Source of the DNA: Aphrocallistes beatrix
Lineage: Eukaryota; Porifera; Hexactinellida; Sceptrulophora; Aphrocallistidae
Length of the DNA stretch: 64,000 nucleotides
Direction: 5' to 3'
NCBI GenBank assembly: GCA_963281255.1
Contig: OY725504.1
Span: 2,170,001 to 2,234,000 of the forward strand
This document shows, piece by piece, positions 3,174-50,810 of this stretch (its first letter is position 1; each line of letters begins with the position of its first letter). The position numbers were made by a program, and so were the translations under genes. The notes below the pieces were generated by a model, which saw nothing but the letters and a program-made list of their open reading frames with translations, did not search any database and was not told the DNA's origin.

Positions 3174-4470
3174 CACTGCCTACGTAACTATAGCCTATTC
3201 ACGGTATTTAACCATGGATTACTTCAAGTCTTATGTGAAAATTACAAACTGTCTAGCATATCTATATTTTGCTGAAAATTAATGAAGTGTAATGAATATT
3301 AATACAAAAGAGGCGGGAAATTGTGATAGTTCTCTCTTACAACAAACTAACATGTATACAATAGTCCTCCATATTAATCATGACCCAAAATCCCAGCGGT
3401 TATGTTGGATGTTTTCTTGCTTTATCATACTTCTTAGCCCCGATTGTGTGCACTCCTGGTATTCTCGTGCAATTTCACTCAATTTTGCCTCTTCTTTCCG
3501 TTGTTTCGAGATACTGACTGGCTGACCCTATAACTTCTATTGGAGTATTACCCGTGCTAATGAGCATATCGATTGGTGATCTCGGCTGACGGTCAAACGC
3601 TAACATGTGGAGAGATATTTTCTCGACGCGTTATCCAGTTTATTGTAGTAGAAAGTAATCTCTTGCAACAACGATGGCCAGGAACCCTTTTCTAGGTGTT
3701 ATTCGAGCATCAAGCAACGTATCACTTGTTGGACGAAGCCGATACGTCTTTCGACCATCCCATCGGACTCCGGGTGTTACGGTGCGGTGTGAAGTTTAGT
3801 AATCCCTAAGTCGTGGCACAGTTCGTGCATCACTAACACATTCACATTCTTCCCCTGATCTGTGAGCATAATATTTGGTACGCCATATCCACGACAGATC
3901 CATCCTTCCATGAATGCGTTAATGATGGACGTGGCGGTCTGGTCTTTCAACGGGATCGCTTCGACGTAATGTGAAAAGAGATCAACTATGAGTAAGAAGT
4001 ACCTGTAGCCGCCATTGCGAGTGTCGTATTCAGCAGGTTAATAGTAAATTCACCCCCGTTATCTGTCTGGAAGATGTGAGGTGCTCCATGTTCACAGAAT
4101 ATATATATCAGGTGTTCGCATATTTTCAGCTGACTTCGTTTAAAGCGCTCTCACCACAATAAACTTGCTAAAACAGTCCTGGTCATCTGTAGTTCTAGGT
4201 CCATCTAACCCATCTACTCTAAACTCCTCTATATCACCAGTTCCATGTTCTCCCATAACCTCGTCTTCCTCGCCGACTTGTTCGGCTGCTTCTTCAGGAT
4301 GCATGACAATTGGGAGTCCCAATTCATACTTAAATTATGAAGGACAATTAAGAAGATTGATGGGGTTTGGCATTTTCCGAAGACCAGGTTTTCTGGAAAC
4401 TTTCTTCACTGTACCGTCACCTTGGGGAATATCGAGGAAGTAGTATACCCTCGTCACGAAAATGTATCGA
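3174..4470 (-). pseudogene. THAP/integrase composite element, copy A (truncated)
   Basis: On the minus strand, in order: the end of a THAP-like zinc-finger domain (about 4470-4335), an acidic linker (4322-4210), a partial integrase core (about 4190-4040), then a second, gypsy-type integrase (about 4010-3290) with VDLFSHY, an LTDQG motif and HPESDGM. The element ends at CACTGCCTACGTAACTATAG (3174). The same order is found on the plus strand at 29.8-34.7 kb. The catalytic region has a stop codon just before HPESDG, which is also present in the other copy. The THAP side is cut off by the hairpin repeat at about 4470, so the second terminus is missing. Not functional. Confidence 0.7.
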
Positions 4471-9776: not shown

Positions 9777-10430
9777 TTAAGGATACCGCCCGCGAAAAAT
9801 GCTTTGGTTTGGCTTACAGCATATGTTAAGAAGAGATATATATATAGAAGTTTAGCGTGGAGAAGAACCCGGTTAAAAAACATTGACACATGCCAAAACG
9901 TTTTTGGTTCGCATTACTAGTTTTTGAGTTACAGGGTCTCAAATTCGTTTTTTGTTCGATTTTCGCTAGCACATCTTAATGGTAGACGCTTCTCCACTCG
10001 GTATTTTTTTTGGAACATACCATAGGAACAATGCTTCCAAAATTGATCAAAACACAGTCTATCATATATGCTATCCTATTGGACCAAAAGAAAGTTAAAA
10101 GAACCAAAATCGTTAATTTTATAAGTTTGAAATTTCCTTGAGAACCCAAACTCGAAATATTTGGGATAATTGTGAATAATAATTCATATTCCTAGCACTA
10201 CGGGGTATAATCCATCAGTTTAGAATTAACAAAGAGCTTCTAAAAAGTATATTCGGAACCTAGAACGAAAGTCAACGACTTTTAGTTTCCAAGTTAGGAT
10301 TTCGAAAAATGATACGTCATCACATGACAAAAGTCTAATACTTAACATTCCGTAGAATGTAGTGCAATTATTATCAATGAATCATATATATACCAATATA
10401 AAAAGTATATTAGAAGGTGAGAACTGTTGC
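9777..10430. mobile_element. TTAA-target element, left part (copy E7)
   Basis: TTAA (9777-9780), then GGATACCGCCC and the B-type subterminal block (TTTGGCTTACAGCATAT, GTTAAGCGTGG). The interior then matches other copies up to about 10,430, including GTCAACGACTTTTAGTTTCC and ACGTCATCACATGA. The A-type end is missing, so the copy is 3'-truncated. Confidence 0.7.
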
Positions 10431-10891
10431 GTAGAATTTTCAGACACTGTATTATAAAACCATGGATTTATCTTTTTCAGACATTTCCATTAGATTCTAT
10501 GATACATAGCTACCCGTAGAATTTTCAGACATTTCCGTTATTGAAACAAAATTTAATTTCAACCACCACTCATTTTCAAGGAATTTTTAATTAGCATATA
10601 AACAAGTATTAAATTCTATTCCTCAGTGTCGCGATATATATATATAATTCATTGAAGTGAATATGATGATCGATAATTGAAATGCATTCAAGAATACCTG
10701 CACAAAATATTGTTTTCCTTCGCATAGAAACACACATTGGTTATAATTAATACAAGCGCGCTTCGCTTGCTTGCGCGCTGCGGGGCTGGCGGACACTTCG
10801 TGTCCGCCGGAGGATCCCTTCGGTCGCCTGAAGGTGACATTGGTTAATTAAACGGGATATATCATCTCTAAATATGTCCATCTTAGTTTTA

Positions 10892-12239
10892 CAGGGTGTC
10901 TCAAAATTATTGCCCTATTGTAAGTCTATACAGTATGGATTATAAATCTACCTCAAATCAGTATAGACTTCAGTTATAGTAACTCAAGTATTGAAATATA
11001 ACTTGAAATTTGATAACTTGAAGATTTATCTACGTACCTTGAAAATATATACGAAATTTTTTTTTTTCCTCTTGTCTTGTTTTACTGGCCGATATGGATG
11101 TTGACGATGGAAAGTTACAGGTCAGAAATCGCACTATTGGGATGTTACTCGCTGGTTCTACTCAGATTTCTGTAGCAAAGGAACTTGGGAAGGATATTAG
11201 AACAGTTCGAAGATGGTGGGCAAGATACAATTGTTCAAAAGATCTTCAGCATAGGAAAGGGGCTGGAAGGCCAAAAAAGCTGAATCGGCGGTCTAAGATC
11301 ATGATCGCAAAATTTCTGGGAAAGCGACACAAATCTACGCGATTAATCGCTACACAAATTACGAGGACATGTGTACCTGTCTCGAAAGACACTGTCCATC
11401 GCTATTTGAGGAAAGATTTGCAAGTTCGACCCTATAAGCGACCAAAACAGCCCAAACTTTCCTCAAAACAGAGAGAAAACAGATTAAATTTCTGTCTGGC
11501 AAAGGAGAACTGGACTGTCGCTGACTGGAGAAACATCCTTTGGTCTGATGAGTCTTCATTTGAGCTATTTCATCCCACAAATCGTCAAAATGACAGGATT
11601 TGGGCAAGAGATGGCTCAAATATAATCCCACAGGAAACTGTCAAATTTCCTCTGAAATTTATGGTTTGGGGGATGATGAGCTTTCGAGCGATCTCTAAAT
11701 TGCACTTCATCCCTCCCAAACAAACAGTAAATACAGCCTACTATATAGATGAAATCCTGGCAAAGTCCTGTTTGGAGACTCTTCACAGAACCCATGAAAA
11801 TGGATCTGTTTTGGATAGAAAAATGCTCAAAAACATGTCAAAAGCTGTTTTTATGCAGGAGGGCGCCCCTGCTCACACGTCCAAAAAAACCCAAGATTGG
11901 TGCAAGAGGAACCTAGCTAACTTTTGGGATAAACCACAATGGCCAGGCAACTCTCCTGACTTAAACCCAATTGAGAACCTGTGGGATATCTTCAGGAAGA
12001 GCTAAACAAGATGGACACCTCCAAAAGTATTTGTGACCTAAAAATACAGCTTGAATCGGCCTGGTCATCCATAAAACCAAATTGTCTAAAAGCTCTGATA
12101 GATGGAATGCCCGAGAGAATAAAATCTTGTATTAAACTAGATGGAAATTATATATCCAAATGACCGATCATACTATATCTCTCTATTCTGATATTTTATG
12201 GATAAAAATACAATTGGGCAATAATTTTGAGACACCCTG
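10892..12239 (+). mobile_element. Tc1-like transposon (DD37E type), defective
   Basis: Terminal inverted repeats of 29 bp with one mismatch. They start CAGGGTGTCTCAAAATTATT (10,892) and are mirrored at 12,211-12,239. TA target duplications are at 10,890-10,891 and 12,240-12,241. Total length about 1.35 kb, normal for Tc1/mariner. It holds one broken transposase gene in plus orientation and sits inside repeat R. Confidence 0.93.
11094..12163 (+). pseudogene. Tc1-like transposase, frameshifted
   Basis: Cut-and-paste transposase that would bind the TIRs and move the element in the nucleus. The first 303 aa (11,094-12,005) have an N-terminal helix-turn-helix (residues about 12-60, including TQISVAKELGKDIRTVRRWW) and a DDE domain: LWSDESSFEL (first Asp), FMQEGAPAHTS (second acid) and NSPDLNPIENLW (final Glu). 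The second acid is Glu where Asp is expected, which would itself be damaging. A one-base loss near 11,990 moves the C-terminus (EELNKMDTSKS onward) to the next frame, ending at 12,163. Spacing from second to third acid is 37 residues. Inactive copy. Confidence 0.93.
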
Positions 12240-12672
12240 TATAATCGATATCACCCGAAAAAACACAAAATTTGTCAATTTTTAAAATGTTGATGAGTAA
12301 TGATGACGTCATAGCAGAGTAATGAGTTATCATTTTTTGATGATATTTACATCATATGTGAGACGTATTAGTATACAGATTCTATTAAAATTTCAGCCTT
12401 CTATCTCCTATAATGGCTGAGGTATGCTCGAATAACTGTGTTGCTTAACTTTTAAAAATGTGACAATGACGTCATAATTCCATGATGAGTCGACATTTTC
12501 GCCTGAGCTCAGAACTTACTGGACCCATAGCCAAAAGACTCCCACATGCCAAAAATCAGCTTTCTGTGCCTGGCAGTTTCTTCAATCAATTCGTTACAGA
12601 TATATATATATATACACACACAAACAAACAAACAATAATCGAGTTTTAATAGTAAGGATTAGTAGATGAAAT

Positions 12673-13094
12673 AATATTGTTTTGACAGAAATGACCCCCC
12701 CTGCTGAAATGGTCCGGGGGGACCATTTCTGACAAATATCTATGGTTCATGACAGAAATTGTCCCCTGTGCAGATTTGGTCCCCCCTCTTTTGCTATATT
12801 GTCGAGTCATCCCTGCTAGCATGATACACTTTACTTGGCTGCTACGCAATTACTCTATCGTTTTAACTTGCTATTAATTAAGTGAATTTGGGAAAATAAG
12901 TCAGAAGATAATAGCGTAATAGTCAAATCAAGATTATCATACTAGCAGGGATGACTCGACAATATAGCAAAAGAGGGGCGACCAAATCTGCAGAGGGAAC
13001 AATTTCTGTCATGACTCATGAACCATGGATATTTGTCAAAAATGGTCCCCCCCGGACCATTTCGGCAGGGGGACCATTTCTGTCAAAACAATAT
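12673..13094. mobile_element. Hairpin (foldback) element with about 155-bp arms
   Basis: The left arm (12,673-12,826) runs from ATATTGTTTTGACAGAAATG to TCATCCCTGCTAGCATGATA. The right arm (12,935-13,094) is its inverted copy with a few mismatches. The loop is about 108 bp. Inside each arm is a smaller inverted pair, GAAATGGTCC...GGACCATTTC, around a run of G or C. No ORF beyond chance. A foldback-type non-autonomous element; no clear target duplication. Confidence 0.85.
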
Positions 13095-13430
13095 GTTACT
13101 GTCAAATAAAGTACATCGTTAATTAATTCTATGATGATACACATCACATCACATGCGATAATCGGGTTCTAATTATGGTGTTAAGGTGTAGGAGACTGTT
13201 CCGCTGTGTCATGTTGTCTTTATAGATACATTCGCTAATTTTATCTTCAGGAAAATATAACCTTTCGTCTATCTAAGACTCATCAGGCTGGCTAGTTGCC
13301 AGCTAGGTCCGTCTATATGTAAATACTAAGTCTTTATAGTATCGTTCGTTTGTAAACACTGAGTATGTACTTAAATAGTCGTATTTTCTTGTAAAAGCTA
13401 TTCAGAATCGAGGGTCTGAACATCATCACT
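13095..13430. other. No gene seen
   Basis: AT-rich spacer between the hairpin element and the OTU region. TGTAGGAGACTGTTCCGC at about 13,188 could be a transposon or LTR-like terminus, but I found no partner. Confidence 0.35.
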
Positions 13431-13475
13431 GGGTATGTTCCCATAGGAAGGGGTAATGGAGTTAATCATTGAAAT

Positions 13476-13874
13476 GACAGGCTCGTAGTGGAGGTTAATT
13501 TTTGAATGTAGATGGATGCCTCCGGATTGGTAGTGGCTCTGAGCAGGTTCCATCTCACGACTCGAGTAAGCGAGTTTCCTTGATTGAAGCTATTGGCTAA
13601 GTATATATCTACATTAAAGATAGCAGACGCTGCCATGATCTCTACGTCACTTCCCCAAATTCAATCAAAATAACTGGGATTTTCGGTTAATATGTAGTTG
13701 CACGGGGTTACTTGTTTCTGTTCAAAGTATCAAGCAATGAGAGATGATTTTATACGTACTTGAGGATGGCTGTCCTCTTTCCCAGTCAAGACTTTTGCTA
13801 AGCATCGGTATAAACAATTTCCATCGCCTACGATAGTCTCGGTCTCCCATGGCTGGTAGCGCAAAAGTGACTGA
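13476..13874 (-). pseudogene. OTU cysteine protease domain (C-terminal part of the Ginger1-like gene)
   Basis: The minus strand shows the OTU catalytic motif GDGNCLYRCLAKVLTG (Asp and Cys of the active site) followed by HPQVR. DVEIMAASAIFNVDIYLAN comes next, and the C-terminal catalytic His is in NLHYEPV. Spacing and order match the OTU fold. OTU enzymes cleave ubiquitin from proteins. A TGA-type stop and a frame change lie between the motifs. The upstream coding side continues beyond a hAT insertion at 13,883 (residues GQSLLRYQPWE next to the insertion, LIRQPGNLT across it). Confidence 0.78.
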
Positions 13875-13882
13875 CCTGCGAG

Positions 13883-16540
13883 TAGGGCTTACAATCCCGT
13901 TCATATTTTGTAATCCCGGGATTTCGGGATTGACATTTTATCTAATTTCGGGATCCCGGGATTCCGGGATTGAAGTTTTTTTCCAATCCCGGGATCCCGG
14001 AATTAAATCTCACGGACACAATATGGCGAAATTTTGTTTAGAGAATGTATATTAAGGGCACATATTCAGTTTAAAGACTGCATCTGATTTAATTAAGTAT
14101 TTTCAACGTTGTTAAACTCACCTTCAATTAAAAACTATAATTAATCATCTCTAGGTAAAAATTAATGTAGGAATCAAGATAGAAATATAATATGATGAAG
14201 AATTGACTAACAATTGACGCTGGTATATGAAAGTATCAATTTAATTAACTATTGCAGTAAACGAAGCAGTTATTTCTTATTATTCCTAATGAAACAGAGA
14301 GTATTTAAACTTCTGTCACTCAGACTGCTCCTGAACCTATTACAGAGATACGCACAAGATGATAAGATTCTCTCCGATTCAACTGAAGTAGGTGGTACTG
14401 TCAATAGCATTTGGTATACCTTCTCTAAAAACTCCTCTCTTACCCGTTTGCTCCGCTATGTTTAATTCATATTTCAGAGAAGACGATAAAGACTCATCAG
14501 ATGGTTATATATCTTGAGGTTTTTTAAGGGAAGCATCGATAGCTAATTGTAGTTTGACTGCTACAGGCAGCGATTCTGTCATTTCTGCGTTACTGACCAC
14601 TGAATTTGAGATGCGTATCTTCATGTATTTCAATTCCTTCTGTATTCTCAGGTTTATTTAATTTGGATAGTAAATTAGCGCAGAATTCCATTACAACAGA
14701 TTTTCTTTCAAGTTTTGCTAAAGGGTTATGCAGATATGCAGTTATCACCGAAGCTTGGATATAGTGTCCTTGAATATTTCTCTGATAAATCGCTTCAATA
14801 ATTCTATTGGTGTATTCTGAAGGTGGATAATTTTGAACTTCATCGAGTAAAATCTTATTGTTGCTTTGGCGCTGATAAAATTTGCATCTCGCCTACATAG
14901 AGCCTCAACAACTATCTTAATTGGATCCAATGCCTGTACGACATGGGAAATTTTCGTGAAATCAGCATCATTTATTTGTGTATCAGCATTCAAATCAAGT
15001 AGAGCTTTTTTGCATTGGGATTTTTAACTTAACAAACCTCTCGAGCATGTATAATAGTGAACTCCAACGGGTCTTACAATCAAGAATAAGCTGCAATCCG
15101 TTTGGATGTTTTTCTTTGGAATAATTCTGGAGAATTTCATTTTTGAGAGGGGAAAGCTTGAAAAATTTTACAATTCTACGAACTCTATTCACTATGCCAA
15201 GCATGTCATGCTTTAACATCAAAGAATCTTCCTGTTGAGTACCAGTAGCAATTACCATAGATAAGCCTTCTGAGTCTTCTATTTCATCAAATATTTCTTC
15301 TTCACACTGGTCAGTTTCACTTAAATAGTCAGATTCTTCCTCTGTATATCTGGTTTGATTCTCATAAAATAAGTCATGTATTACGAGCTGAAGCCCATGA
15401 GCGTAGCACAATTGATGAAGTGCTGGAATTAACTTTCCAAGTTTTTTTCATCATGGAACAGCCATCTGTAGTAACTGCAACAATATCCGTATCAAAATCA
15501 ATTTCAAATTCATTTAGTTTGTTAGCTATCGTCTCACAACATCTCTCTGCTGAAAAGCTTCCGCGTATTCTTACCAATCCCAAGTTCCAAAAATATTCAA
15601 TTCCATGTATATTGATGTTTAAATATCTCCTATTTTGCAGTGATGTCCATTCGTCTAGGGTAAGGCTGAATTTCTCACTGTTTTCTGAGGAATAAATCGT
15701 GTTTGATTCTTTCAGATAAATGTATTCCGTATTTTACTACTTGTTCTCTGATACTAGTAATTGATTTTGGTACTGAATGACCCAGGGCTGTCAGAGATTT
15801 TCTCAGGTAGGGAGAAGTAATAAAAATACTAAAAGGTAGACCATCATAGACTGTCATTCTCGCAAGTACCGCTGAGAGAGTAGTATCGTTAACGAAATTG
15901 TCAATTGTAGTGATTTTCGTACGTTTACTTTGAGGATCGCTTTCAAGAATTTCGAAATTCCTACGCTTTCCCTGTATATCAATTTGATGCATTGATTTGA
16001 GATGTACGTATAATCCCTCCGTATACCCAACAATGCATTTTAACACTTTTTTTGCACACTTTGTATTGTGCAAATTTGCCACATAAGGATCGAAGAAAAT
16101 GATTCCAGATCTCGACGCCATCAAAAACTTTAAATACGGGGGTATTGCATTTTGCCATTTAGAGAGTATATTACGAAAAATGTATCTTATATAATATTAG
16201 GGAAACATATTTATAATCTACCTCACCGGAATCATTATTATTAAATCCTGTTATTGCTCAACACTGAATCCATATGAAAGTTGTAAATAATTTATTGGTA
16301 AGCTACAAAAGTAAATAATATATTGTTACCATGAAGCAGTATGATATTGCTATTGAAAACGAATAATTATCGAAATTTTTCATAATGTTTAATAGTTATC
16401 CAGAAGAAAATTAACCTAATAATAAAATTTTGGGATCTCGGGATTAAAAAACAAATCCCGGGATTCAATCCCGGTAGAACGGGATTGAGAAACAAATCCC
16501 GGAGAAAAAACACACCGGGATCCCGGGATTGTAAGCCCTA
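13883..16540 (-). mobile_element. hAT transposon, 2.66 kb, with CCCGGGAT subterminal repeats
   Basis: The ends are inverted: TAGGGCTTACAATCCCG at the left and its mirror CGGGATTGTAAGCCCTA at the right. The flanking 8-bp duplication is CCTGCGAG (13,875-13,882) and CCTGTGAG (16,541-16,548), 7 of 8 matching. Eight-base duplications are diagnostic for hAT. Both ends carry clusters of AATCCCGGGATT-like repeats within about 110 bp, probably transposase-binding sites. It is inserted in the OTU-encoding sequence of the Ginger1-like gene. Confidence 0.9.
14745..16124 (-). pseudogene. hAT transposase, multiply broken
   Basis: N-terminal piece (16,124-15,675, 149 aa): a BED-like zinc finger (KCAKKVLKC...HLKSMH) and a nuclear-localisation-like SKRTK. 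The next pieces carry the RNase H-like core with TTDGCSMMKK (15,583-15,374), CYAHGLQLVIHD and KTRWSSLLYMLERF (15,411-14,995), then a further helical part (14,993-14,745). Frames change near 15,590 and 15,400 and a stop lies at 14,994. The C-terminal dimerisation domain is not clearly open. This copy cannot make a full transposase. Confidence 0.85.
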
Positions 16541-17883
16541 CCTGTGAGGTTACCGGGTTGCCGAATTAGAGAGTTGAATTTCAGCCCAAATATAGCGCAT
16601 TTCTCTCAGCCACTTTTCAGAAAGGACGCTGATTTTTGGACTCACACTAGGTATTTTGGGGCTACTGGGAGTCGAATTGTCTGAGAACGATTCCCAAAGA
16701 ACAGCGCTCATAAATTGGACAGCCTAAATGATAATATATTACAATAAATAAATCTAAGGGTGCGTGAAAACAAGTCTCGACCGACTAATTAAGTAAACTC
16801 CCAAAAAGAGTATTCGTAGTAAGTTCAGCAAGTAGATTCATTTTTTATAAGAAAATATAAAAATTTTATTATTAACCATATTATATTAAAATTTAAAAAG
16901 GAAACTCACAACTCCATATAGAAATTTCTCAGCGTATTTTGAAGCCAAGATATCTCCATATTCTGGATATACATAGGTCTGTAGTCCAGCTCAATACAGT
17001 TTCTCTGATCTCCTGCTTCTAAAATGGAATTATTATTCGTAGAGTATTAAAATCAATGGGTCTTAGAGTTGATAATTACTAACCACTGATCCTCATTCGA
17101 GTCTTTAAGAAATTTAAAAATGAAGATATTCGGAACATAATGGTGAAATCGATTGAGTTTCTTATGCAGGTCTTCGTGCAATGGCGTCAGGAAAGTGCCC
17201 TTGCTCACATTCTCCCTTAGAATAATCTAGAAATAAAGAAAGTGTTTACCAGTTGAAATACAATAGGTTAATGTAATATTTTGTCTATGATTAATGAAAA
17301 TAACATGCGCTGATCTCGATAGAAGATTGCATTCCTTGTATGTACGTCAGAGTTCTTGCGAGAAGCAAGCAATGGAAAAGAATGCAAATATAGCATGATA
17401 TGATTATTACAAAACTGGTCAAATTACCTTGAGGTTGGCTGGATGATGATGAATTGCTTCACTTATAAATCCAAATTCAACGTGTGGGGTCTAGAAAACA
17501 GAGATCAAACGGACCATGATCACGAAATTTATTCAAAAATAGAACATACGTGTGAAGACTTCGATCTTTTGACCTCATCACAATCAATTTTCGCATCTCA
17601 ATTTCTTTTTCCCAGAGTAATTTTTCCAGAATTATCCTGACACTCGTGATAGAGTTAGGTAGTGTGGATAGGAATTTTCTTATCCTTCTTCGATTTCAGT
17701 TCTTCTTTTGAAATAATGGCGTGGCTGTCAGTAATTCTGGATGCTGTAAAAGGCCCCAAAAACTTCGACTGGTGTTTAGTATTTGGCATCTTTTTCAATT
17801 TGGGGATGTTTGTAAATAGGATTTCGTCCCCTTTTTTAATGTTACATATATATGTTCAGTAGTACACCATAGCAAACATCATA

Positions 17884-18026
17884 CAGTCGCAACCGGGTTT
17901 TTCTTACTTTCGTTTTTTTCTTACTATTTATGAAGTAAAAAATTCGAAATTTATATTAATTTCCATCGGATTTTTTCTTACTTTCTGAAACTATAAAGAC
18001 AGAGTAAGAAAAACCGGTTTCGATTG
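17884..18026. mobile_element. 143-bp TA-flanked MITE
   Basis: The terminus CAGTCGCAACCGGGTTTTTC is mirrored by AAAAACCGGTTTCGATTG, each flanked by TA (17,882-17,883 and 18,027-18,028). It sits between the basic helix and the GPF-motif segment of the Ginger1-like integrase and so splits it. No ORF. The ends suggest the pogo/Tc1-mariner group. Confidence 0.85.
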
Positions 18027-18784
18027 TACGTACTTCTATATTGTTAGAGTTAACTTACTAATGTGCTTACTCAATAACTGAGAAAATTAACTTGCCTCTT
18101 TTCATTAACTTTCTTATCATACTGCCTCTTCTGCTTTAGCTGCTCTGATCTTATTGAGGCGTTCACAAGATCGCAGGTATTTTTCCTAGACTCATTCAGG
18201 AGATGAATCGATTCTAGGTGGTCATCAGGAGGAGAAAACATATCCAATTCGCACCCTTCCTCGATAGCCACAGATTCGGAAATGATAGTCTCTTGGAGTT
18301 CATAGTCTTCGTCATGTGATACATCTATCTAAGTTATATTCGAGACTAGATTCTCGTATTTCGATTCCCGTCCCCACATAACTTGAAAGGGAGTGTACGA
18401 GTGCGACTTCTTATCAGTAGAATTCATACATAAGACTGCAGGTTTAAGTACTGAAGACCAATGCTTGCCAGTCTGAAATGTCATTTTGTTCAACTTACTA
18501 TAATTTAGTGTATTATTTAATAATTGAATAATAAAGGTTAATTCAATAAAAATTGTAATTGATAACTAATGAACTAACTCACGTAGTTGACAATCTCTGA
18601 ATACATCCCCAGCCAATAATAACGCTGCTGGATTGATTGAACGGTAGCATTCATTCCCGGATGCAGTAGATGATCATGATACTTCTCCAATATACTGGAT
18701 ACATCAGAACGGCATGGAACCTGCAAGTCTTTCTCTTCCCCGTTTCTAATCTCTTTCTGTGATTAATTTAAAAATAAGTATTGA

Positions 18785-19070
18785 TATATTATAGTCACAA
18801 AACGGGCGGGCATGCATACAATCTATGACCATCTCGGGCATAGGCGTCAGACCTACCCGGCCACCCGGCATGGGCCGGGCGGCCCTAAGGGGCTTACCCG
18901 GCTCTACCCGGACTATGTCCAGCTCTACTCGGCATCGTCAGTTATGGGCCGGATAGGCCCGGGGGCCTACCTGGCTGGGTACAAGCTTCCCCGATACATT
19001 CCCAAAGTCCTAGAACCGTGTATCATGCAGTTTAACTGCACAACAAGCGAGCAGATAGCTCAGTAGGGAG
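18785..19070. other. GC-rich block with repeated TACCCGG motifs
   Basis: About 200 bp with dense CCCGGC/GGGCCGG words (TACCCGGC, CTACCCGGAC, GGGCCGGGCGGCCC) in an otherwise AT-rich region. A chance ORF of 84 codons crosses it. Such clusters are typical of subterminal regions of hAT-like elements, but no paired terminus is seen. It lies just upstream of the Ginger1-like zinc-binding exon. Confidence 0.4.
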
Positions 19071-30061: not shown

Positions 30062-30360
30062 GTATGCCGAATAGGTGTAGTGTAGCCAACTTCTGCTCCA
30101 ATTACGATGCAGTGATTATGTTCCAGTTTTTGAAATGTTGAATCATTGATCCAAAGAACTGCAAGATGAATGGCGAAGGTTTCTCCATAGAGATGATGCA
30201 TGGAAATTGGCGAGTCTTCATCTGTGCGAGCCATTTCTGTGACGAGGATATACTACTTCACTTCGATATTCCCCAGGGTGACGGTACAGTAAATAAAGTT
30301 TCCAGAAAACCTGATCTTCGGAAAATGAGAAGCCCATCAATCTTCTTAATTGTCCTTCAT
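30062..30360 (+). pseudogene. THAP-like zinc-finger domain
   Basis: MPNRCSVANFCSNYD starts the pattern (the two Cys of a C2CH finger). After a frame change it continues NWRVFICASHFCDED (Cys and His), then a KPDLRKMRSPSIF tail that matches the '...LKPGAVPSIF' end of THAP domains. THAP fingers bind DNA and are found in P-element transposases. The Cys/His spacing fits. A stop and a shift between the halves make it inactive. The second half is also present in copy A (4470-4335). Confidence 0.62.
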
Positions 30361-30439
30361 ATTTATGTGTAAATTGGGACTCCCAATTGTCATACATCCT
30401 GAAGAAGCAGCTGAACAAGTCGGCGAGGAAGACGAGGCT

Positions 30440-31320
30440 ATGGGAGAGCATGGCACTGGTGATATGGGGGAGTTTAGAGATGGGACCTAGAACTGCAGAT
30501 GACCAGGACTGCTTTAGCAAGTTTATTGTGGTGAGAGCGCTTAAAAGAAGTCAGCTGAAGCCTGAGGGTATGCTAGCACCTCACATCTTCCAGACAGATA
30601 ACGGGGTTGAATTTACTATTAACCTGCTGAATACGACACTCGCAATGGCGGCTACAGGTACTTCTTACTCATAGTTGATCTCTTTTCACATTACGTCGAA
30701 GCGATCCCGTTGAAAGACCAGACCGCCACGTCCATCATTAACGCATTCATGGAAGGATGGATCTGTCGTGGATATGGCGTACCAAATATTATGCTCACAG
30801 ATCAGAGGAAGAATGTGGATGGATTAGCGGTGCACGAACTGTGCCACGACTTAGGGATTACTAAACGTCACACCACACCGTAACACCCGGAGTCTGATGG
30901 GATGGCCGAAAGACATATCGGCTTCGTCAAACAAGTGATACGTTGCTTGATGCTCGAACGCCACCTAGAAAAGGGTTCCTGGCTGTCGTTGTTGCAAGAG
31001 ATACTTTCTACGGCAATAATCTGAACAACGCGTCGAGTAAAATATCTCCGTCCATGTTGCCGTTTGGCCTTCAGCCGAGATCACCAATCAATATGCTCAT
31101 TAGCACTGGTAATACTCCAACGAAAGTTACAGGGTCATCCAGTCAGTATCTTGAAACAACGGTAAAGAGAGGGCAAGAATTGATTGAAATTGCACGAGAA
31201 AACCGAGAGTGCACCCAATCGGGGGAAGTATGATAAAGGTAGAGAAGAAGTATGATCAAGGCAAGAAAAAATCCAACATAACCACGGGAGATTGGGTCAT
31301 GATTAATATGAAGGACTATT
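30440..31320 (+). pseudogene. Two consecutive integrase domains (first partial, second gypsy-type)
   Basis: First: DDQDCFSKFIVVRALK and FQTDNGVEF (30,589-30,615), resembling the first and second catalytic Asp motifs of KRBA2-like integrases; the Glu half is missing. Second, from 30,654: YRYFLLIVDLFSHYVEAIP, NIMLTDQ and HPESDGMAER, the full D,D(35)E motif series of Ty3/gypsy-type integrase. A GDWVMINMKDY segment at about 31,290 is the start of its C-terminal domain. A TAA stop replaces Tyr in the YHP motif. Copy A has the same stop, so the mutation predates duplication. Later frameshifts are private to this copy. Confidence 0.75.
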
Positions 31321-31896
31321 CGTCTATATGTTAGTTTGTAGTAAGAGAGAGCACTATCACAATTTTCCACCTCTTTTGTATCAATATTCAATACACTCAA
31401 TCAGTCAGCAAAATATAGATATACTACTACTATACAGTTTGTATTTTGCACTTAAGGATACCGCCCTTGAAAAACATCGCCTGACAAAAAAAATGGCAGA
31501 AATTTTTTGTTAATTCCATTGTATTACTGAGTGGTCTACCATCTAATCGTACTTGTTGGACGGTATTTATTTTGATATTTATGAATTGGCCCCCTAAAGT
31601 TTAATGCTCCTAAAAATCGGAAAGTTATTTGTGGTTTTTCGGCGCAATCATCAATTAGTTTCTTACTTATCCGATATTTTTTCAATGATATAGACCTCAA
31701 AATGGTTTTGGCCTCTTTGAAGATTATAAAACAGATCAATTAAGAAAAAGAGGAATATAAAATCCAATCAAAATATCTCTATGAGGGACTTCATATCTAA
31801 AATGCTCGGGAAATGGCAGTTGATATTAGCTATTGTATAAAGAAGAGAATTCTGAACATTTCAAAAAAATTTCCGACCATTAGTTCGTAAGTTATA

Positions 31897-36935: not shown

Positions 36936-38871
36936 TTAAGGATACCGCCCGTGAAAAATCCATAGGTTTGGCTTATAGCATATATCAAGAATAGAGATAT
37001 ATAAGATGTTAAGCGTGGGCAGGTAGTGCAATTAAAAAATATTGAGACATGCCAAACAGTTTTTGGTTCACATTTCTAGTTTTTGAATTACAGCGTCTCA
37101 AAGTCGTTTTTTTCCGTTTTTCCCTAGCACATCTTAATGGTAAGCCCTCCTGCACTCTGTGATTTTTTTAAAGCACATGTTTGGATCAAATGCTTCGAAA
37201 ATTTATTCATAGATAGTCTATCATATTTGCCACTTCATAGGACCAAAAGAAAGTTAAAATTTTAAAAATTGTAAATTTTATCGGTGTCCGAATAAAAAGG
37301 GCCAAAAAACGGCGAAAAAAGTCCGATTTTCTTTGCAAATCAGCAATAAAATCACAAATTTATAAAATATCAAAAATTGAGTGGTCCTACGCTCATCGCC
37401 TAATGATATGGAACAACTCCTGAAATTTTCAAACCTCTATCTCAAAGCAATTTTGAGTTAAAATTTTTGAAAGACGGTCAATTTTGGAATTTTAAAGTCC
37501 CGAGATATAGGGATTTGAAGTTTTGATTGTAAGAACGATGTAAAATGAGCTATGAACGAAAAATAAATATCCATGGACATTTAATCGCGTGTATACTAAT
37601 TAATTAGATGTATTCCAACAGATTTTGGTGAAAATAGCAAAATTATACTGAAAATTCACAAATTACCTTGAGGCCCCTAACCCCGAATATTTTGAACCAA
37701 TTAGGGAATGTAAATCATATTCCTAGCAGTACAATGTATAATTCATCGGTTTAGAATGAATAAAGAGCTACCAAAAAGTATATTAGGAAGTTAGAGCGAG
37801 AGTCTACGACTTTTAGTTTTCAAGTTAGGATTTTCGAAAAATGCTACGTCATCACGTGATAAAAATTTGAAACTTAGCATTCCATTCCATGTAGTACATT
37901 TATTATTTAAGAATCAGATATATACCGTCTTGAAAAGTATATTAGGAATTGAGAGCTAAGAATTTTGGTGTATATTTCCCGAGATATGGAGGAATCTGTT
38001 TTTGGACCATAAATGGGGGGGCTTTGACTAAAATTTGGAGATCAATGATTTGAACTTCCAAAATAATCATGTTGGGTGCTTCAAAGTTTCTGTATACATT
38101 GTTAGTGACTATTGCATTGTTTTTTGAGTATAATAGCTACTTTTGGGAACTTATTTCATGACAAGATTCACCATTTTCTAATATATTCAAAGTTCTCCAT
38201 AGAATTTGTATTACAACAAAAACGATGATTAGTCTAGAAATATTTACTTTTTGACAAAGAGATGTTTGAGGAACCTATATATTATCATATATATCCTTTC
38301 ATTTAAGATTATTATAGATTATATATCTTCAATAGTTTTTAAGCATTGACATCGAGCACTTTGGGGGCCATAGAGTGGTTTGATGTCCGAACTTTACCTA
38401 CAATATACTATAACTTACGAACTAATGGTCCGATCTGAACAAACTTTTTTTTAAAATGTTCAGAATTTTTTTCTATACACAATAGCTAATATCACAACGG
38501 CCATTTCCCGAGCATTTTAGAAATGAAGTCCCTCATAAAGATATTTTTGATTGGATTTCAGGTGCCTCTTTTTCTAAATTCATCTGTTTTATAATATTTA
38601 AAGGGGCCAAAACCATTTTGAGGTTCGTATAATTGAAAAAATATCAGATAAGTTAGAAAATAATTGATGAATGCCCCGCAAAATCACGAATAACTTTCCG
38701 ATTTTTAGTACGCCTGAGCTTTAGGTGCCCAGTTCTAGAATATCAAAATAAATACCGTCCAACAAGTACGATTAGATGGTAGACTACTCAATAATCCGAT
38801 GGAATTGACAATAAAAAATTCCACAATTTTTTTTAATGTTTTGCGATGTTTTTCGAGGGCGGTATCCTTAA
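36936..38871. mobile_element. TTAA-target element, full length (copy E3)
   Basis: TTAA at 36,936-36,939 and 38,868-38,871. The left end is B-type (TTTGGCTTATAGCATAT, TTAAGCGTGGGCAGGTAG) and the right end A-type (GACGGTATTT inverted; CGATGTTTTTCGAGGGCGG). About 1.94 kb, no coding capacity. It is in inverted orientation to E4 (39,948-41,040), and the two are very similar. It cuts off the C-terminal side of the P-like transposase relic. Confidence 0.9.
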
Positions 38872-39590
38872 GAGATAAGAATAACCACAGTTCTCAGTTA
38901 GGAAATTTGTAATCTCCGGCGAGGCATTCATGTCTGAAGCTTGTAAAGGTATGCTTGCTCAGTTTTCCACCTTTCTCAGTTAGTGATTGCCAAGTTTCCA
39001 ACCAATGTATAATGCGGGTAAGAAAAACAAAGTGCTCATCATTAAATGTCAAACGACTAGACAATAATTCAATCGAATATGCTCACCTGGTACATTGACA
39101 TTAAAGATTTTCCAAAGAGATAAAAGAATCTGAACAAATTCGGGTGTGTGGTACTTAAATGCTGGACTATGCTCATTCTGAATAGCCAGACCAGCAATGG
39201 TGGATTCATGAATTACTTTTAGTACCAACTTAATATTGTGACACTCAAGAATGGGATAACACGACTTTAAAGTCAAACGTGGGGCTAGTTTTGCCAAGCT
39301 ATCCTCTGCAGAATTATATAGCATTCGAATGTCACGAAAAAAAGCAAATGTCAAGAAATGGCTTCTATGTACGTATATCATTAGGATGTGAACCCTTGTT
39401 TCAAATTTCTCGAGAGGAGAAAACAATTTGAAAGTTTAACATTTAGGGGCAGTTATCGGTAGAGATAACATGAACGAATAGGCCACATTCCTCAACATCA
39501 CGAATACATGATTTGATGATGTCAAATAGCGTTTCAGCTGTTACAGATTTTGTTCTGGGAAAAACGATTTTGTTGTTTGTTTAAGGAAAG
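38872..39590 (-). pseudogene. P-element-like (THAP9-type) transposase, catalytic part
   Basis: Minus strand: KIVFPRTKSVTAETLF...DVEECGLFVHVISTDN (39,585-39,440), an RNase H-like strand-helix pattern with the TDN acid. Then a 125-aa frame (39,426-39,049) with SHFLTFAFFRDIRM, LAPRLTLKSCYP, KVIHESTIAGL and LLSLWKIFNVNVPG. Then, in another frame (39,048-38,885), TFNDEHFVFL, HWLETWQSLTEKG and KLSKHTF. This series matches the P-element/THAP9 transposase insertion and C-terminal regions. Frameshifts lie at about 39,430 and 39,060, and copy E3 truncates the end. Confidence 0.75.
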
Positions 39591-39947
39591 AGAAAAAGTT
39601 TATTCTAAAGTCCAAAGGAAGAATACAATTTTTATAATGTATTAAAGTGTGGCAGTGATAAGCAGGACATACGCTGAAGATATATATAACACGTAGGTGA
39701 AATTAAATGTATTTTGAGTGTCAAAATTTTCACCAAAATGTTATAGCGACGCATGTTTATCAGTATCAGACTGTTTTCAAGTTGGCAGTTAATAAATTGA
39801 AGTCTAAAAATTTATTTTATATGACAATTATGTAATTCGTCCTCAGGCACATTAGCCTGGTTTTTAGCGATAACTTGTTGGATATTATTTTGTGCAGATG
39901 TAATTTTAGAATCATTGGATTTGAAGTTACTTTTAATTTCGGTTGTG

Positions 39948-41040
39948 TTAAGGATACCGCCCTCGAAAAACATCGCAAAACATTAAAAAAAATATGGAAA
40001 TATACACCAAAATTCTTAACTCTCAATTCCTAATATACTTTTCAAGACGGTATATATCTGATTCTTAAATAATAAATGTACTACATGGAATGGAATGCTA
40101 AGTTTCAAATTTTTATCACGTGATGACGTAGCATTTTTCGAAAATCCTAACTTGAAAACTAAAAGTCGTAGACTCTCGCTCTAACTTCCTAATATACTTT
40201 TTGGTAGCTCTTTATTCATTCTAAACCGATGAATTATACATTGTACTGCTAGGAATATGATTTACATTCCCTAATTGGTTCAAAATATTCGGGGTTAGGG
40301 GCCTCATGGTAATTTGTGAATTTTCAGTATAATTTTGCTATTTTCACCAAAATCTGTTGGAATACATCTAATTCATTAGTATACACGCGATTAAATGTCC
40401 ATGGATGCTTTTATTTTTCGTTAATAGCTCATTTTACATCGTTCTTACCATCAAAACTTCAAATCCCTATATCTCGGGACTTTAAAATTCCAAAATTGAC
40501 CGTCTTTCAAAAATTTTAACTCAAAATTGCTTTGAGATAGATGTTTGAAAATTTCAGGAGTTGTTCCATATCATTAGGCGATGAGCGTAGGACCACTCAA
40601 TTTTTGATATTTTATAAATTTGTGATTTTATTGCTGATTTGCAAAGAAAATCGGGCTTTTTCGCCATTTTTTGGCCCTTTTTATTCGGACACCGGTAAAA
40701 TTTACAATTTTTAAAATTTTAACTTTCTTTTGGTCCTATGAAGTGGCAAATATGATAGACTATCTATGAATAAATTTTCGAAGCATTTGATCCAAACATG
40801 TGCTTTAAAAAAATCACAGAGTGCAGGAGGGCTTACCATTAAGATGTGCTAGGGAAAAACGGAAAAAAACGACTTTGAGACGCTGTAACTCAAAAACTAG
40901 AAATGCGAGCCAAAAACTGTTTGGCATGTCTCAATATTTTTTAATTGCACTACCTGCCCACGCTTAACATCTTATATATCTCTATTCTTGATATATGCTG
41001 TAAGCCAAACCTATGGATTTTTCACGGGCGGTATCCTTAA
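39948..41040. mobile_element. TTAA-target element, internally deleted (copy E4)
   Basis: TTAA at 39,948-39,951 and 41,037-41,040, with inverted GGATACCGCCC ends; A-type left, B-type right. About 1.09 kb. Compared with E3 it lacks about 0.85 kb of the A side; the remaining part is almost identical. It lies between the THAP-end relic (41,274-41,468) and the catalytic part of the P-like transposase. Confidence 0.9.
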
Positions 41041-41273
41041 GAGGCGAATTGGAAATTTCTTCTGCTAGCATTTATAGTTCAGTGTCACTAAGATATATTT
41101 GAGATATCGGAAAGATTCACCTTTGCGATATGCTTACAGACAAATCAATTTCTACTGATAAGTAAACATCAATAAAAATATTGCTAGAATCTAGCTTAGG
41201 GCGCATAAATACTAATGTACTTGGATTCGGATACTAGTATGACCATATTTCATAAATATAAAGAAGTTGAATC

Positions 41274-41468
41274 TTATCTTGAAGGTCTTGGAAAGTGTAG
41301 ATCAGAAAATTTTAGGCTTTGAGAGAGGAATTCATAATCTTTAGACTCGAGGGATAGACGAGAGCGTTTAGTTCCTGAGTGTGATGAATAGTAAGATGGG
41401 CCACCTGGTAGAATAGATGGTACGGTACCTTCTTTCTCGATGGTACGGTACCTTCTGATTTTTGGCAA
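41274..41468 (-). pseudogene. THAP-domain end and linker of the P-like transposase
   Basis: EKEGTVPSILPGGPSYYS matches the AVPSIFP box that ends THAP domains. A serine-rich linker with KRSRLSLE follows. It lies upstream, on the same strand, of the P-like catalytic relic at 39.6-38.9 kb, so the two were probably one gene before TTAA copy E4 landed between them. The THAP finger itself is lost under the repeat R copy starting at about 41,455. Confidence 0.55.
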
Positions 41469-41890
41469 GTGGGAGTCTTTTGGCTATGGCTCCACTAAGT
41501 TCTGACCGCTGACGAAAATGTCGACTCATCATGTAATTATGACGTCATTGTCAACTTTTTAAAATTAGAAATTTCAGTTTTTCGACCATAACTCAGGCAT
41601 TTTAGGTGATAGAAGGCTGAAATTTTAACAGAATGTGTAGTTTAATATATTTCACAGATGATGCAACTATCGTCAAAAAAAGATGACTCATCAATTTGTT
41701 ATTGACGTCATCATTACGAATCAAAATTTAAAAAATTAACACATTTGGTGATTTTTCGTGTGATATCGATTATAACAGTCGGACAGGCGTATTTAGGGAT
41801 GTTATCTCAGTTATAATTAATCATTGTGACCCCAGACACTCACATGGCGCTACAGGCGCCACAAATTGTCCGCCAGCCGCGCTAAATTAA
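41455..41890 (-). mobile_element. Repeat R copy, minus orientation
   Basis: Starts in CTGATTTTTGGCAAGTGGGAG, has TTATGACGTCATTG, GATGATGCAACTATCGTC, ATTGACGTCATCATTACG and GATATCGATTATAACAG, and ends with a worn GC head (CAGGCGCCACAAATTGTCCG). The terminal CAAGCGAAGCGCGCTTG is lost. Confidence 0.8.
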
Positions 41891-43270
41891 AATGAAGTGC
41901 GAACAATAAGTAAATATTCATTTAAAAGTGTTAGAACACGTTAAAACATCTACCATTAGTATTTTAAACCATGGGATAGGGCATTATTCAATTCAATGGT
42001 TCGGACTTTCTCCGTATCCCTCTAAAGGGGTTCTAAACATTAAAGTTGGCCTTTCCTATAATAGCTAACTTTTGACTTTTTCAACCGATTCATTTAATTT
42101 TTTCAGCGAAGATTTGAATCGCAGAGTTATCAGCAAATCTGCATTCATAATTGAAATAATTCAACAGATAAAATTTAAAAAAAAACATTTGATCATTTTA
42201 CAAGGAAGAAATCGGACACAATATGCTTAGAATCCTTTAGAAACTTTTCAAATTAATTCATAAATCGATGATCTAATTAATGAACAAACAGATTTTTGAA
42301 ATTTTGAAAATTGTTAAAAATTCACACCAAAACACCCGACGAATTTTATTTTTCGTCATTTTGACACTATTTTTTTCATAATTCTCTTTTTATTTGTATT
42401 ATCAAAGATCTGTCTGTTCATTTTGTTCTACTCTTCGAGATCTATCAAAAACCGTTTTTCGTCTGTTTTCGTCCCTATCTTGAATTTACAAAAGGTTCTC
42501 ACCTTTATAATTGCTGAAAAAAAAGTCCCAGAAAATAGGATTTAGAAAAAATTTATTAGTTTTTAACTGCTTTGGAATATTATATAAAATGCAAATATCT
42601 TTATTTCGACAACTTATAGCAATACTTAAATTCAAAATATGGCACATCAAAAATTTTCACCATCAAAAGTGTGAAAAACTGGTAATTGATGACTGGCCAC
42701 CCAGGAATGACCACATTTAGCATTAAAATGATGATCTGACATGGTTCAAAGAAGTTATGGATATGAGACATTTCGGTTCAAAAATGTCCTTTTTTGGATG
42801 ACACCAGGTGGTACAAGTGGCTTTAAGTAGAGACATATTAGCATTGAAATTCTAAAAATCGATATTAATGTTTACAACCCCTTTAGGGATCTATTGATGA
42901 TTAAAAAGGTCTTTTGGAAAATTTTGTTAAAAAACAAAATGCCCTTAGGAAAAGCCAATCTTAAATTCGATTTTTAGAATTTCAAATATTTCAACACTTA
43001 AAGTAACGTACCACCTAGTGTTGCCTAAAAAAGGACATATTTTGAAGCTAAATGTCAGGAATTTGATATATATTGGACACATTTGGAGAATTTTCTTGCT
43101 GCGGGTTCCTAGCAACGGCCAGGAATGTGCAAAAATTCCTGGCCGTTGCTAGGTACGGGCAACCAAAAAAATCTCCAAATATGGTCAATATATATATCAA
43201 TAGCAGGAAATTAAATGCTGGACACGAATTCAGAATTCATAGTCTGGCATTTTTGAAAGAAGTTATAGAT
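41891..43270. repeat. Repeat-derived sequence incl. TAGCAACGG hairpin copy 4
   Basis: 42,000-42,720 matches the palindromic repeat of 20.1-20.9 kb and the 22.0-kb region. 42,720-43,270 is a TAGCAACGG hairpin copy (core CCTAGCAACGGCCAGGAA...TTCCTGGCCGTTGCTAGG at 43,110-43,155). No gene; the 68-70-aa frames here are incidental. Confidence 0.6.
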
Positions 43271-43282
43271 CTGAGATAAAAA

Positions 43283-43460
43283 AAGGGCCAAAAAAGTCAA
43301 ACATTTCTCCCACCGTTTCTTGATCTTCCGCAGGCCGTCATTTTAGAAGTCCTCAATTTGCATTGAAAACCACTGTTCCACCTCTTGAATGACCTCATCT
43401 GTGTCATCAAATCGTCGACCCTCATCAAATCGTGGAAATTCCTTTTCCACTCACAACAGT
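43283..43460 (-). pseudogene. mariner transposase, C-terminal relic
   Basis: Minus strand: EFPRFDEGRRFDDTDEVIQEVEQWF, with one stop, then DGLRKIKKRWEKCLTF. This matches the C-terminal end of mariner transposases ('...GIxKLxxRWxKC'). The rest of the element is absent. It is repeated at 50,008-50,185 within the duplicated contig end. Confidence 0.75.
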
Positions 43461-44083
43461 GTCATACGACGGGCAATCATCACCATTGACAGCCCAGTTA
43501 CAAAAGTAAAAGAAGTTAAAAGAACATTTTCGCACCATCATGCGCATGAGGACCAGTGATTATACTGACAAAATGTCATCGACATAGCTCAATAACCTCC
43601 GGGTGATATTTAAATCTTTACGATATCCCCTCGCACATTTAAAAGATTTAAATCGGCATTAAGAATAAATAAAAGCATTTACAGACATATAGTATTAACA
43701 TATATACTCATGATTTTAACATATTTGAGCAAAAATTTGGAAGAAAATATCAACCGTCCGCTGAAAACCAAATTTCTTTGAGGCCTGTTGTATCGTATTT
43801 TAGGCGCTTATATTACTGGACCAGGGATTCTTAATGAAAATTGTATACTATCGTATTTTGTTGCATTAAGAAGACTGTTTAAACCGAATTGGACTGGGAA
43901 TAATTACGAAACGGATGGATTGAGGTGGAGGTGGGCTAATGGCCCCGGTAAAGTAAAAAGTAAAGTTTATAGATTTATATACCCCCTGAATCCATGCTAA
44001 TATGTTCTCAGGGGTCACAATCTCGGTGAGATGCTAAACCTACTGATAGTTGCTGACTGAGGTGTATGCAGCATGTGTGTATG
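43461..44083. other. No gene recognised
   Basis: A 70-aa frame at 43,788-44,000 (with NWTGNNYETDGLRWRW) is somewhat less AT-rich but matches no family I know. No element ends are visible. Confidence 0.35.
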
Positions 44084-44085
44084 TA

Positions 44086-45206
44086 CAGGGTGGGGCATAA
44101 GTTCTGTCCCAAACTAATTTTGACATATTTACAAAACCCATATAGTAATCGCCCCAAAACTTCACAGGAATATTAACAACATATGTTGGGTCTGAATAAA
44201 TTTAATGTTATTCAATATAGCCACCTTTCTTAGTTACCACAGCCTGGAGTCTTGTCCTAAATTGAGACACGGCGCGCCGGAAGTGATCCTGGGGGATTTT
44301 CAGCCATTCTCGTTGCAAAGAAGCTTTCAGAGAGTCAATATTCAAGTGGGACTTAGCACAGGCCTTTTCCTCCAGAATAGACCAGACCGAATAGTCCATA
44401 GGATTGAGATCGGGACTTGATGGTGGCCATTCTTCCTTGGAAATAAATTCTTTTTTGTCCCGGAACCACTGTTGAGTGACATTGGCTGTGTGGGGTGGTG
44501 CTCCGTCTTGTTGGAATATCCAATTGCTGTTTCTGAAGAGTTTATGACCAGCACTTTTCACTTCCGTTTCCAAAATGAGATCGCGGGACGTTTTGGAATT
44601 AATTTTTACACCAGAGGGGACAAAAATCAGATTTGTCCTGGAATTTGCGGATATCCCTCCCCATACTATGACTGAAGCTGGCTTTTGACATTTGGGAATG
44701 AATCGAACCTCTTCTGGGATATCCTTAACGCTGGTGGACACGATTCTATCATTTTGGGAGTTAGATACTTCCTCAATTGTGAATAATTTCTCATCAGAAA
44801 ATAATATTTTATCCACAACTGACTCGGCGGCACGAGATAACAGGATTCGACTTCTTTGCAGCCGCTTTTCTCTAATTGACTTGGTAAGCATGTGTACCTT
44901 TCTACGTTTGAGAGATTTTAACCCTAATTGGTCATGCACAACTCGTCGTATCGTTCTCGAGCTTACCCCAAAATCACGAGCCATTTTACGCATGGAACGC
45001 CGAGGATTTCGGACTATTCTCTTCTGCACCTTAGCTTTTAGGCCAATGGTCCTTTCAGTACGCGGACGGCCACTTCTAGCTTTGTCATTCAAACTTCCCG
45101 TCTCCTTGTATCTTTTGATAGTGCGATAGATCAATTTCCTACTGAAGTTTTCTTGTCCAAGCATTTTGAAGATCTCGCCAGCAGACTTCCCGCACTCAAA
45201 TAAACT
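44086..45206 (-). mobile_element. Tc1/mariner element (DD36D), cut by the assembly gap
   Basis: Same element as 50,811-52,119, starting at CAGGGTGGGGCATAAGTTCT after TA (44,084-44,085). Its right part is missing because the contig ends at 45,206. The coding part seen (45,206-44,208) equals the C-terminal 318+ residues of the full copy without visible difference. Confidence 0.9.
44208..45206 (-). CDS. Tc1/mariner transposase, 5' end lost in gap
   Basis: Identical, as far as it goes, to the 353-aa ORF at 50,933-51,994. The first in-window Met (45,164) corresponds to residue 36 of the full protein; the true start lies in the gap. Read this as the same locus represented twice, not as a second gene. 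Confidence 0.85.
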   Translation of the reverse strand, partial: SLFECGKSAGEIFKMLGQENFSRKLIYRTIKRYKETGSLNDKARSGRPRTERTIGLKAKVQKRIVRNPRRSMRKMARDFGVSSRTIRRVVHDQLGLKSLKRRKVHMLTKSIREKRLQRSRILLSRAAESVVDKILFSDEKLFTIEEVSNSQNDRIVSTSVKDIPEEVRFIPKCQKPASVIVWGGISANSRTNLIFVPSGVKINSKTSRDLILETEVKSAGHKLFRNSNWIFQQDGAPPHTANVTQQWFRDKKEFISKEEWPPSSPDLNPMDYSVWSILEEKACAKSHLNIDSLKASLQREWLKIPQDHFRRAVSQFRTRLQAVVTKKGGYIE

Positions 45207-45406: not shown

Positions 45407-45596
45407 AATCACGAATAACTTTCCGATTTTTAGTACGCCTGAGCTTTAGGTGCCCAGTTCTAGAATATCAAAATAAATACCGTCCAACAAGTACGATTAG
45501 ATGGTAGACTACTCAATAATCCGATGGAATTGACAATAAAAAATTCCACAATTTTTTTTAATGTTTTGCGATGTTTTTCGAGGGCGGTATCCTTAA

Positions 45597-46315
45597 GAGA
45601 TAAGAATAACCACAGTTCTCAGTTAGGAAATTTGTAATCTCCGGCGAGGCATTCATGTCTGAAGCTTGTAAAGGTATGCTTGCTCAGTTTTCCACCTTTC
45701 TCAGTTAGTGATTGCCAAGTTTCCAACCAATGTATAATGCGGGTAAGAAAAACAAAGTGCTCATCATTAAATGTCAAACGACTAGACAATAATTCAATCG
45801 AATATGCTCACCTGGTACATTGACATTAAAGATTTTCCAAAGAGATAAAAGAATCTGAACAAATTCGGGTGTGTGGTACTTAAATGCTGGACTATGCTCA
45901 TTCTGAATAGCCAGACCAGCAATGGTGGATTCATGAATTACTTTTAGTACCAACTTAATATTGTGACACTCAAGAATGGGATAACACGACTTTAAAGTCA
46001 AACGTGGGGCTAGTTTTGCCAAGCTATCCTCTGCAGAATTATATAGCATTCGAATGTCACGAAAAAAAGCAAATGTCAAGAAATGGCTTCTATGTACGTA
46101 TATCATTAGGATGTGAACCCTTGTTTCAAATTTCTCGAGAGGAGAAAACAATTTGAAAGTTTAACATTTAGGGGCAGTTATCGGTAGAGATAACATGAAC
46201 GAATAGGCCACATTCCTCAACATCACGAATACATGATTTGATGATGTCAAATAGCGTTTCAGCTGTTACAGATTTTGTTCTGGGAAAAACGATTTTGTTG
46301 TTTGTTTAAGGAAAG
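45597..46315 (-). pseudogene. P-element-like transposase relic (duplicate view)
   Basis: Same frames as at 38,872-39,590 (125-aa frame at 45,774-46,151). Part of the duplicated segment. See that entry for motifs. Confidence 0.72.
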
Positions 46316-50700: not shown

Positions 50701-50810
50701 TATATACCCCCTGAATCCATGCTAATATGTTCTCAGGGGTCACAATCTCGGTGAGATGCTAAACCTACTGATAGTTGCTGACTGAGGTGTATGCAGCATG
50801 TGTGTATGTA

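Follow-up and report, generated by a model that had tools for sequence, protein, structure and literature searches.

The 64,000-nucleotide stretch analysed here (the window, G000:C18:2170001-2234000) lies at positions 2,170,001 to 2,234,000 of contig OY725504.1 from the hexactinellid sponge Aphrocallistes beatrix, and it was compared with the sponge's own genome of 100.5 Mb in 28 contigs. Its minus strand carries, from 10425 to 18838, pieces of an integrase gene followed by an OTU protease domain, together with nested inserts. These remains are most probably those of a Ginger1-like DNA transposon copy that is now dead, a reading that we put at roughly 0.94. Relatives with open exons elsewhere in the genome carry a ten-exon gene for an integrase-type DDE transposase that ends in an OTU domain, are bounded by terminal inverted repeats (TIRs) and 4-bp duplications of the form GNNC, and have matching empty sites.

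Remains of an integrase-OTU element in the window

The extent of the element was determined by blastn comparison with its three closest relatives, the copies L029-L031, which lie on three contigs and are 97% identical at exon 2. The window matches L029-L031 at 94-97% across 18838-18522 and at 91-93% across 18525-16540; it matches L030 and L031 at 91% both at 13882-13086 and at 10752-10474. Homology to subfamily E begins at 18838. The 5' end upstream of this point is lost, and no 5' TIR of the window copy was found by comparison with the relatives. The 3' terminal region (10425-10540, minus strand) matches the termini of L030 and L031 and consists of a TIR ending in ...GCAACA and one or two units of a 48-bp subterminal repeat. 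It adjoins the tetramer GTTC (10421-10424), which fits the GNNC target and whose 5' partner is lost. The first-pass annotation of this DNA had described a gene at 13440..18756; the pieces that it named do lie inside that range, but the element is longer and its 3' end, at 10425, falls outside.

Exons of L031 used as tblastn queries recovered most of the gene, always on the minus strand. Exon 2 (18583-18756), 97% identical to that of L031, encodes the HH half of the H2C2 zinc-binding domain, and Pfam Integrase_H2C2 was detected within 18577-18762 (E=4.5e-13). Exon 5, the post-catalytic region (18101-18497), follows an acceptor ttatag, is 95% identical to its counterpart (E=5e-83) and contains an in-frame TAG at 18329-18331. 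Exon 6 (17577-17843) bears the GPY/F-type region, here GPF (87% identity, E=1e-47). Three linker exons sit between the GPF and OTU exons, namely the short exon 7 (17428-17475, 88% identity), exon 8 (17086-17226, 98% identity) and exon 9 (16910-17018), whose frame is broken mid-exon so that it was matched as two pieces in different frames. Exon 10 is in two parts. The first (16541-16723) has a frame break near 16601, while the second (13425-13882), also broken in frame, holds the OTU protease domain with its GDGNC and HYEPV motifs and matches the L031 exon in two pieces at 79% and 92% identity. The matches to the L031 OTU exon run over 16723-16537, 13882-13502 and 13496-13425. Pfam OTU was returned on the two halves at 13888-13733 and 13660-13469 with E=0.022 and 0.024, below the curated cut-off. 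This mapping bears out the earlier description of zinc-binding, post-catalytic, GPF and OTU pieces on a single strand. Even with E-values up to 1 allowed, exon 1 of L031 had no match anywhere in the window.

The two parts of exon 10 are separated by a decayed hAT transposon on the minus strand (13883-16540, 2,658 bp), which had gone unmentioned when the OTU domain was first described. It has inverted termini at 13882-13899 and 16524-16541, a Dimer_Tnp_hAT match (E=4e-7 at 14273-14455) and a flanking 8-bp duplication, CTCACAGG/CTCGCAGG at 16541-16548 and 13875-13882, with one mismatch. Later inserts of about 2.3 kb occupy the 3' non-coding part (10753-13085), where L030 and L031 have only 10-16 bases between the flanking matches. 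Among them are a fold-back stretch of inverted repeats at about 12674-13094 and a Tc1-like element whose open reading frame lies on the plus strand (11043-12005; DDE_3, E=2e-9).

The L031 queries for exons 3 and 4, which encode the DDE core, gave no match at the element's position in the window. Breakpoints placed against L030 and L031 reveal that both exons were lost in a deletion of about 0.7 kb, which has its junction at a 4-bp microhomology, AATT (18522-18525, minus strand), and fuses intron 2 to intron 4. The absence of the core had been recognized at first pass, but exon 5, the next to follow, begins at about 18497 and not at 18472. Since none of 18 other loci checked exon by exon lacks both core exons, the missing core is damage to the window copy and no trait of the family.

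Distant integrase-core matches to exon 3 occur elsewhere in the window, at 3849-4126 (minus strand) and 30650-30811 (plus strand), with 35-43% identity and E-values of 2e-3 to 6e-6. Both lie within copies (87%) of a single repeat, at 3254-4461 and at 30234-31426.

Relatives with a ten-exon gene

In the sponge's own genome the exon-2 peptide gave at least 150 matches and the OTU peptide at least 210 (150 candidates scored in each case). When the first 60 exon-2 relatives were set against 154 OTU matches, 40 of them had an OTU match within 7 kb; the mean of 1,000 random draws was 1.3 and the maximum 6. This pairing led us to reject a chance neighbourhood of an unrelated integrase remnant and an OTU gene: the hAT transposon and the frame breaks within and between the pieces in the window would suit such an explanation, but the same exon order recurs in five subfamilies between matching TIRs, and coincidence is hardly credible. 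Three exon-2 relatives with identical scores (G000:C3:4013585, C14:3988359 and C19:3092244) have no OTU within 7 kb among the matches listed and perhaps represent a subfamily with another protease or none.

Twenty relative loci were fetched and 18 were checked exon by exon, the more distant L047 and L048 being left out; exon 7 was absent from the exon models of subfamilies C and D used in this check. All tested exons are full-length and stop-free in 11 of the 18 loci (L031, L033, L034, L035, L037, L038, L039, L041, L043, L044 and L045), and not all of them are in the other seven (L029, L030, L032, L036, L040, L042 and L046). Both L029 and L031 retain full core exons 3-4. Within a subfamily, copies on different contigs reach 99.9% identity across 5.5 kb, and this near-identity suggests that the family moved recently.

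The gene of L039 comprises 10 exons and gives a protein of 810 amino acids; its nine introns are all GT-AG and their phases are consistent. Pfam detected in the unaltered spliced protein, in this order, Integrase_H2C2 (3e-18), rve (8e-9) and OTU (1e-8), the last at residues 662-779 and thus C-terminal. Taken separately, the OTU exon of intact copies scores E=5e-9 in L039 and 1e-7 in L041; among solved structures it comes closest to OTU domain-containing protein 1 (E=1e-4). The core matches solved integrases, such as 3dlr_A (E=3e-17) and PFV integrase entries (4e-17). In the alignment the D, D and E of the core line up with the D, D and E of 3dlr_A, which are catalytic residues, and all three are invariant across the five subfamily representatives.

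The exon order is common to the five subfamilies and the borders agree where they could be pinned; where exon 5 ends and exon 6 begins could be pinned in some subfamilies only. Intron 2 splits the zinc finger, with two H on exon 2 and the CxxC on exon 3. The GPY/F-type motif reads GPY in subfamily A, whereas B and E have GPF. Exon 1, read by eye, shows a conserved YP followed by conserved Y/F positions in each of the five representatives.

Another OTU domain was found at the C-terminus (E=3e-9) of a multi-copy open frame of 1,037 amino acids, L089 (G000:C7:763600-766800, minus strand), whose N-terminal part has no Pfam match above cut-off. OTU matches at C4:961412, C6:4042450, C7:2463656 and C15:4005091 score the same, and L089 is possibly another OTU-bearing mobile element.

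Inverted repeats and GNNC target sites

Six copies were measured. They are 5.2-6.5 kb long, their ends read TGTTG...CAACA, and their best inverted matches span 106-141 bp at 97-99% identity, within the 40-270 bp that had been predicted for relatives. The inverted match is offset between the ends by 16 bases in L041 and by 48 in L046. All six are flanked by exact 4-bp duplications: GTGC in L039, GGGC in L040, GAGC in L041, GGCC in L042, GGAC in L043 and GTCC in L046. The CCGG or CCGT duplications that the first-pass annotation expected in relatives are replaced here by GNNC.

To survey more sites, we picked 22 outer pairs among the TIR-pattern places on C1-C4, excluding nested pairs, and fetched both ends of 19. 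Exact duplications were found in 14 of these pairs, every one GNNC, and two of the 14 have identical flanks. The remaining three pairs were read from the flanks: two are exact (GCTC and GGAC) and one is not. Genome-wide, GNNC precedes 298 of 322 TIR-pattern ends, some of which are not independent as they stand in nested or duplicated copies, while about 3% would be expected from the base composition of the window. Empty sites were also detected. A query in which the flanks of L042 were joined with one GGCC gave at least 42 matches, 40 of which cross the join (40 of 1,275 candidates scored), and these matches reach 100% over 80 bp. A 2-bp duplication with CTG...CAG ends would describe the same target and be indistinguishable by sequence; the 4-bp reading fits because integrase-type elements have TG...CA ends.

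Short elements share these TIRs, such as C1:4135820-4136342 with the duplication GTTC, and look like non-autonomous derivatives. In some copies the 48-bp TIR-like unit forms arrays close to the 3' end, with 18.5 units in L031:8895-9795 and at least 39 in L034:8028-9901, where the array runs off the fetched stretch.

The structure of the ends also bears on a possible origin from a Gypsy retrotransposon with long terminal repeats (LTRs), of which the window would hold a fragment with a captured OTU domain. The integrase is indeed of Gypsy type, the genome is rich in elements that have reverse transcriptase and rve in one long frame, and a reverse transcriptase lies within 7 kb of 2 of the 60 exon-2 relatives, among the 150 reverse transcriptase matches listed. 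However, the six full copies all terminate in inverted repeats, and neither an LTR nor a reverse transcriptase was seen in L039; there the gene is interrupted by nine introns, and what open fragments remain beyond it could not nearly accommodate a reverse transcriptase. With neither LTRs nor reverse transcriptase the family does not belong among Gypsy elements, and we rejected this very improbable origin.

A Ginger1-like family with its own target

Ginger1 elements are described as having H2C2, DDE, GPY/F and YPYY motifs, a C-terminal OTU or Ulp1 domain, TIRs of 40-270 bp, TGTNR ends, 0-4 introns and 4-bp duplications that read CCGG (75%) or CCGT/ACGG (24%) (PMC2836005); the duplication length of 4 bp is also given elsewhere (PMC10045372). 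Their transposases are close kin of Gypsy integrases, and the role of the OTU or Ulp1 protease is only proposed (PMC2836005). OTU-type examples are Ginger1-1_HM, -2_HM, -3_HM and -11_HM from Hydra and Ginger1-1_AC from Aplysia (Bao et al. 2010, PMC2836005). The sponge family resembles these in its H2C2 finger, DDE core, GPY/F-type region, C-terminal OTU domain and intron-bearing gene, in the length of its TIRs, its TGTNR ends and its 4-bp duplication and, judged by eye, perhaps in a YP...Y-type N-terminal motif. It differs in its nine introns, in the 48-bp TIR-like subterminal arrays of some copies and perhaps in the conserved linker exons 8-9 between GPY and OTU. The anatomy largely agrees, but the target does not, and a gene with nine introns goes beyond what has been published; set against published descriptions, the family is here called a Ginger1-like variant and not plain Ginger1. 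The decayed Ginger1 proposed at first pass thus holds for anatomy, TIRs, ends, duplication length and lack of reverse transcriptase, and fails on the target. No GNNC-specific Ginger is reported in the parts of the Ginger literature examined (PMC2836005, PMC10045372, PMC12863088, PMC9004415, PMC10294476). The family shares an integrase-like transposase, TGTNR ends and a 4-bp duplication with Ginger2/Tdd; Ginger2, in contrast, is described as lacking GPY/F and YPYY and as preferring the AT-rich RTATAY (PMC2836005). The presence of GPY/F in three subfamilies and the GNNC target place the sponge family outside Ginger2/Tdd.

Multi-exon structure and the same integrase parts are also found in the host genes GIN1/GIN2 and Imagin, and the DDE triad of Imagin is defunct (PMC2836005, PMC12863088). 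The first-pass annotation had considered a domesticated gene that was broken later; if it derived from Ginger1 as GIN1 or Imagin did, its core would have been lost by selection. The window copy does keep H2C2, GPF and OTU exons without the core, and domesticated Ginger1 genes exist (PMC2836005, PMC12863088). Yet the sponge family, unlike these host genes, is multi-copy and TIR-bounded, and its core is lost in one broken copy only, by a single deletion at a microhomology. That copy has stops, frame breaks and a hAT transposon in its OTU exon, and its 3' TIR persists. Given relatives with core exons, TIRs and duplications, we rejected domestication, to which we accord scarcely any likelihood.

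Several observations weigh against the assignment of the window copy to a Ginger1-like family. The target is GNNC and not the CCGG/CCGT of published Ginger1; 5 of the 19 fetched pairs mismatch at one or two bases, and GNNC is absent before 24 of the 322 TIR ends. No OTU match lies within 7 kb of 20 of the 60 exon-2 relatives, among the matches listed. A strict GPY/F is present in three of the five subfamilies only, C having GPC and D having GPQ, and the CxxC of subfamily C is one residue short between its two C. Splicing and the fusion of integrase and OTU in one protein are inferred from the conservation of exons and phases, and the role of OTU in transposition is putative. Finally, when subfamilies B and E are compared, the ratio of non-synonymous to synonymous divergence (dN/dS) comes to 0.08 in the integrase (exons 1-6), 0.10 in the linker (exons 8-9) and 0.12 in the exon for OTU, values that are rough because dS is high (1.1-1.4); in the other four pairs dS is saturated or nearly so. 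Rough as they are, these ratios show that integrase, linker and OTU are all under purifying selection.

A spliced transposase of this Ginger1-like family would bind the TIRs and perhaps also the TIR-like 48-bp subterminal repeats. It would free the TG...CA ends and, by analogy with retroviral integrase, join them to the target 4 bp apart at GNNC, the DDE core thus performing cut-and-paste at the DNA level. The OTU domain might allow transposition to succeed by taking ubiquitin off the transposase itself, or off host proteins that act in repair or chromatin. As for the copy in the window, its 5' end is gone, the microhomology deletion took away its catalytic exons, and hAT and Tc1-like elements inserted into it, in whatever order. 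A broader proposal is that these elements form a separate, still-mobile Ginger lineage, in which the target has switched from the CCGG type to GNNC, a nine-intron gene moves as DNA and the OTU deubiquitinase is needed for transposition. We hold it tentatively, at somewhat less than even odds; the need for OTU is suggested because its exon is conserved about as strongly as the integrase. With several subfamilies whose copies are near-identical and apparently complete, and with a clear target rule, the genome provides material for testing how integrase-type transposases choose their targets and what a deubiquitinase carried by a transposon does. That a mobile gene has nine introns is also consistent with the view that the introns of GIN-type host genes come from their transposon ancestors.

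A look at the gene content of the whole genome gave 19 homeobox matches and no Wnt match, the controls of the Wnt search being silent as well; taken alone, these counts might hint at an animal with few of the usual genes, perhaps similar to a myxozoan, though this is no more than a guess. Elsewhere in the window, Rfam and tRNA scans of which gave no match, two 6,525-bp stretches (38682-45206 and 45407-51931) are 100% identical and lie on both sides of a gap of 200 N; they are probably an assembly duplicate and not a biological tandem. A 272-amino-acid open frame at 52796-53614 (minus strand) contains an NHL repeat (E=7e-5) and is not obviously of transposon type.

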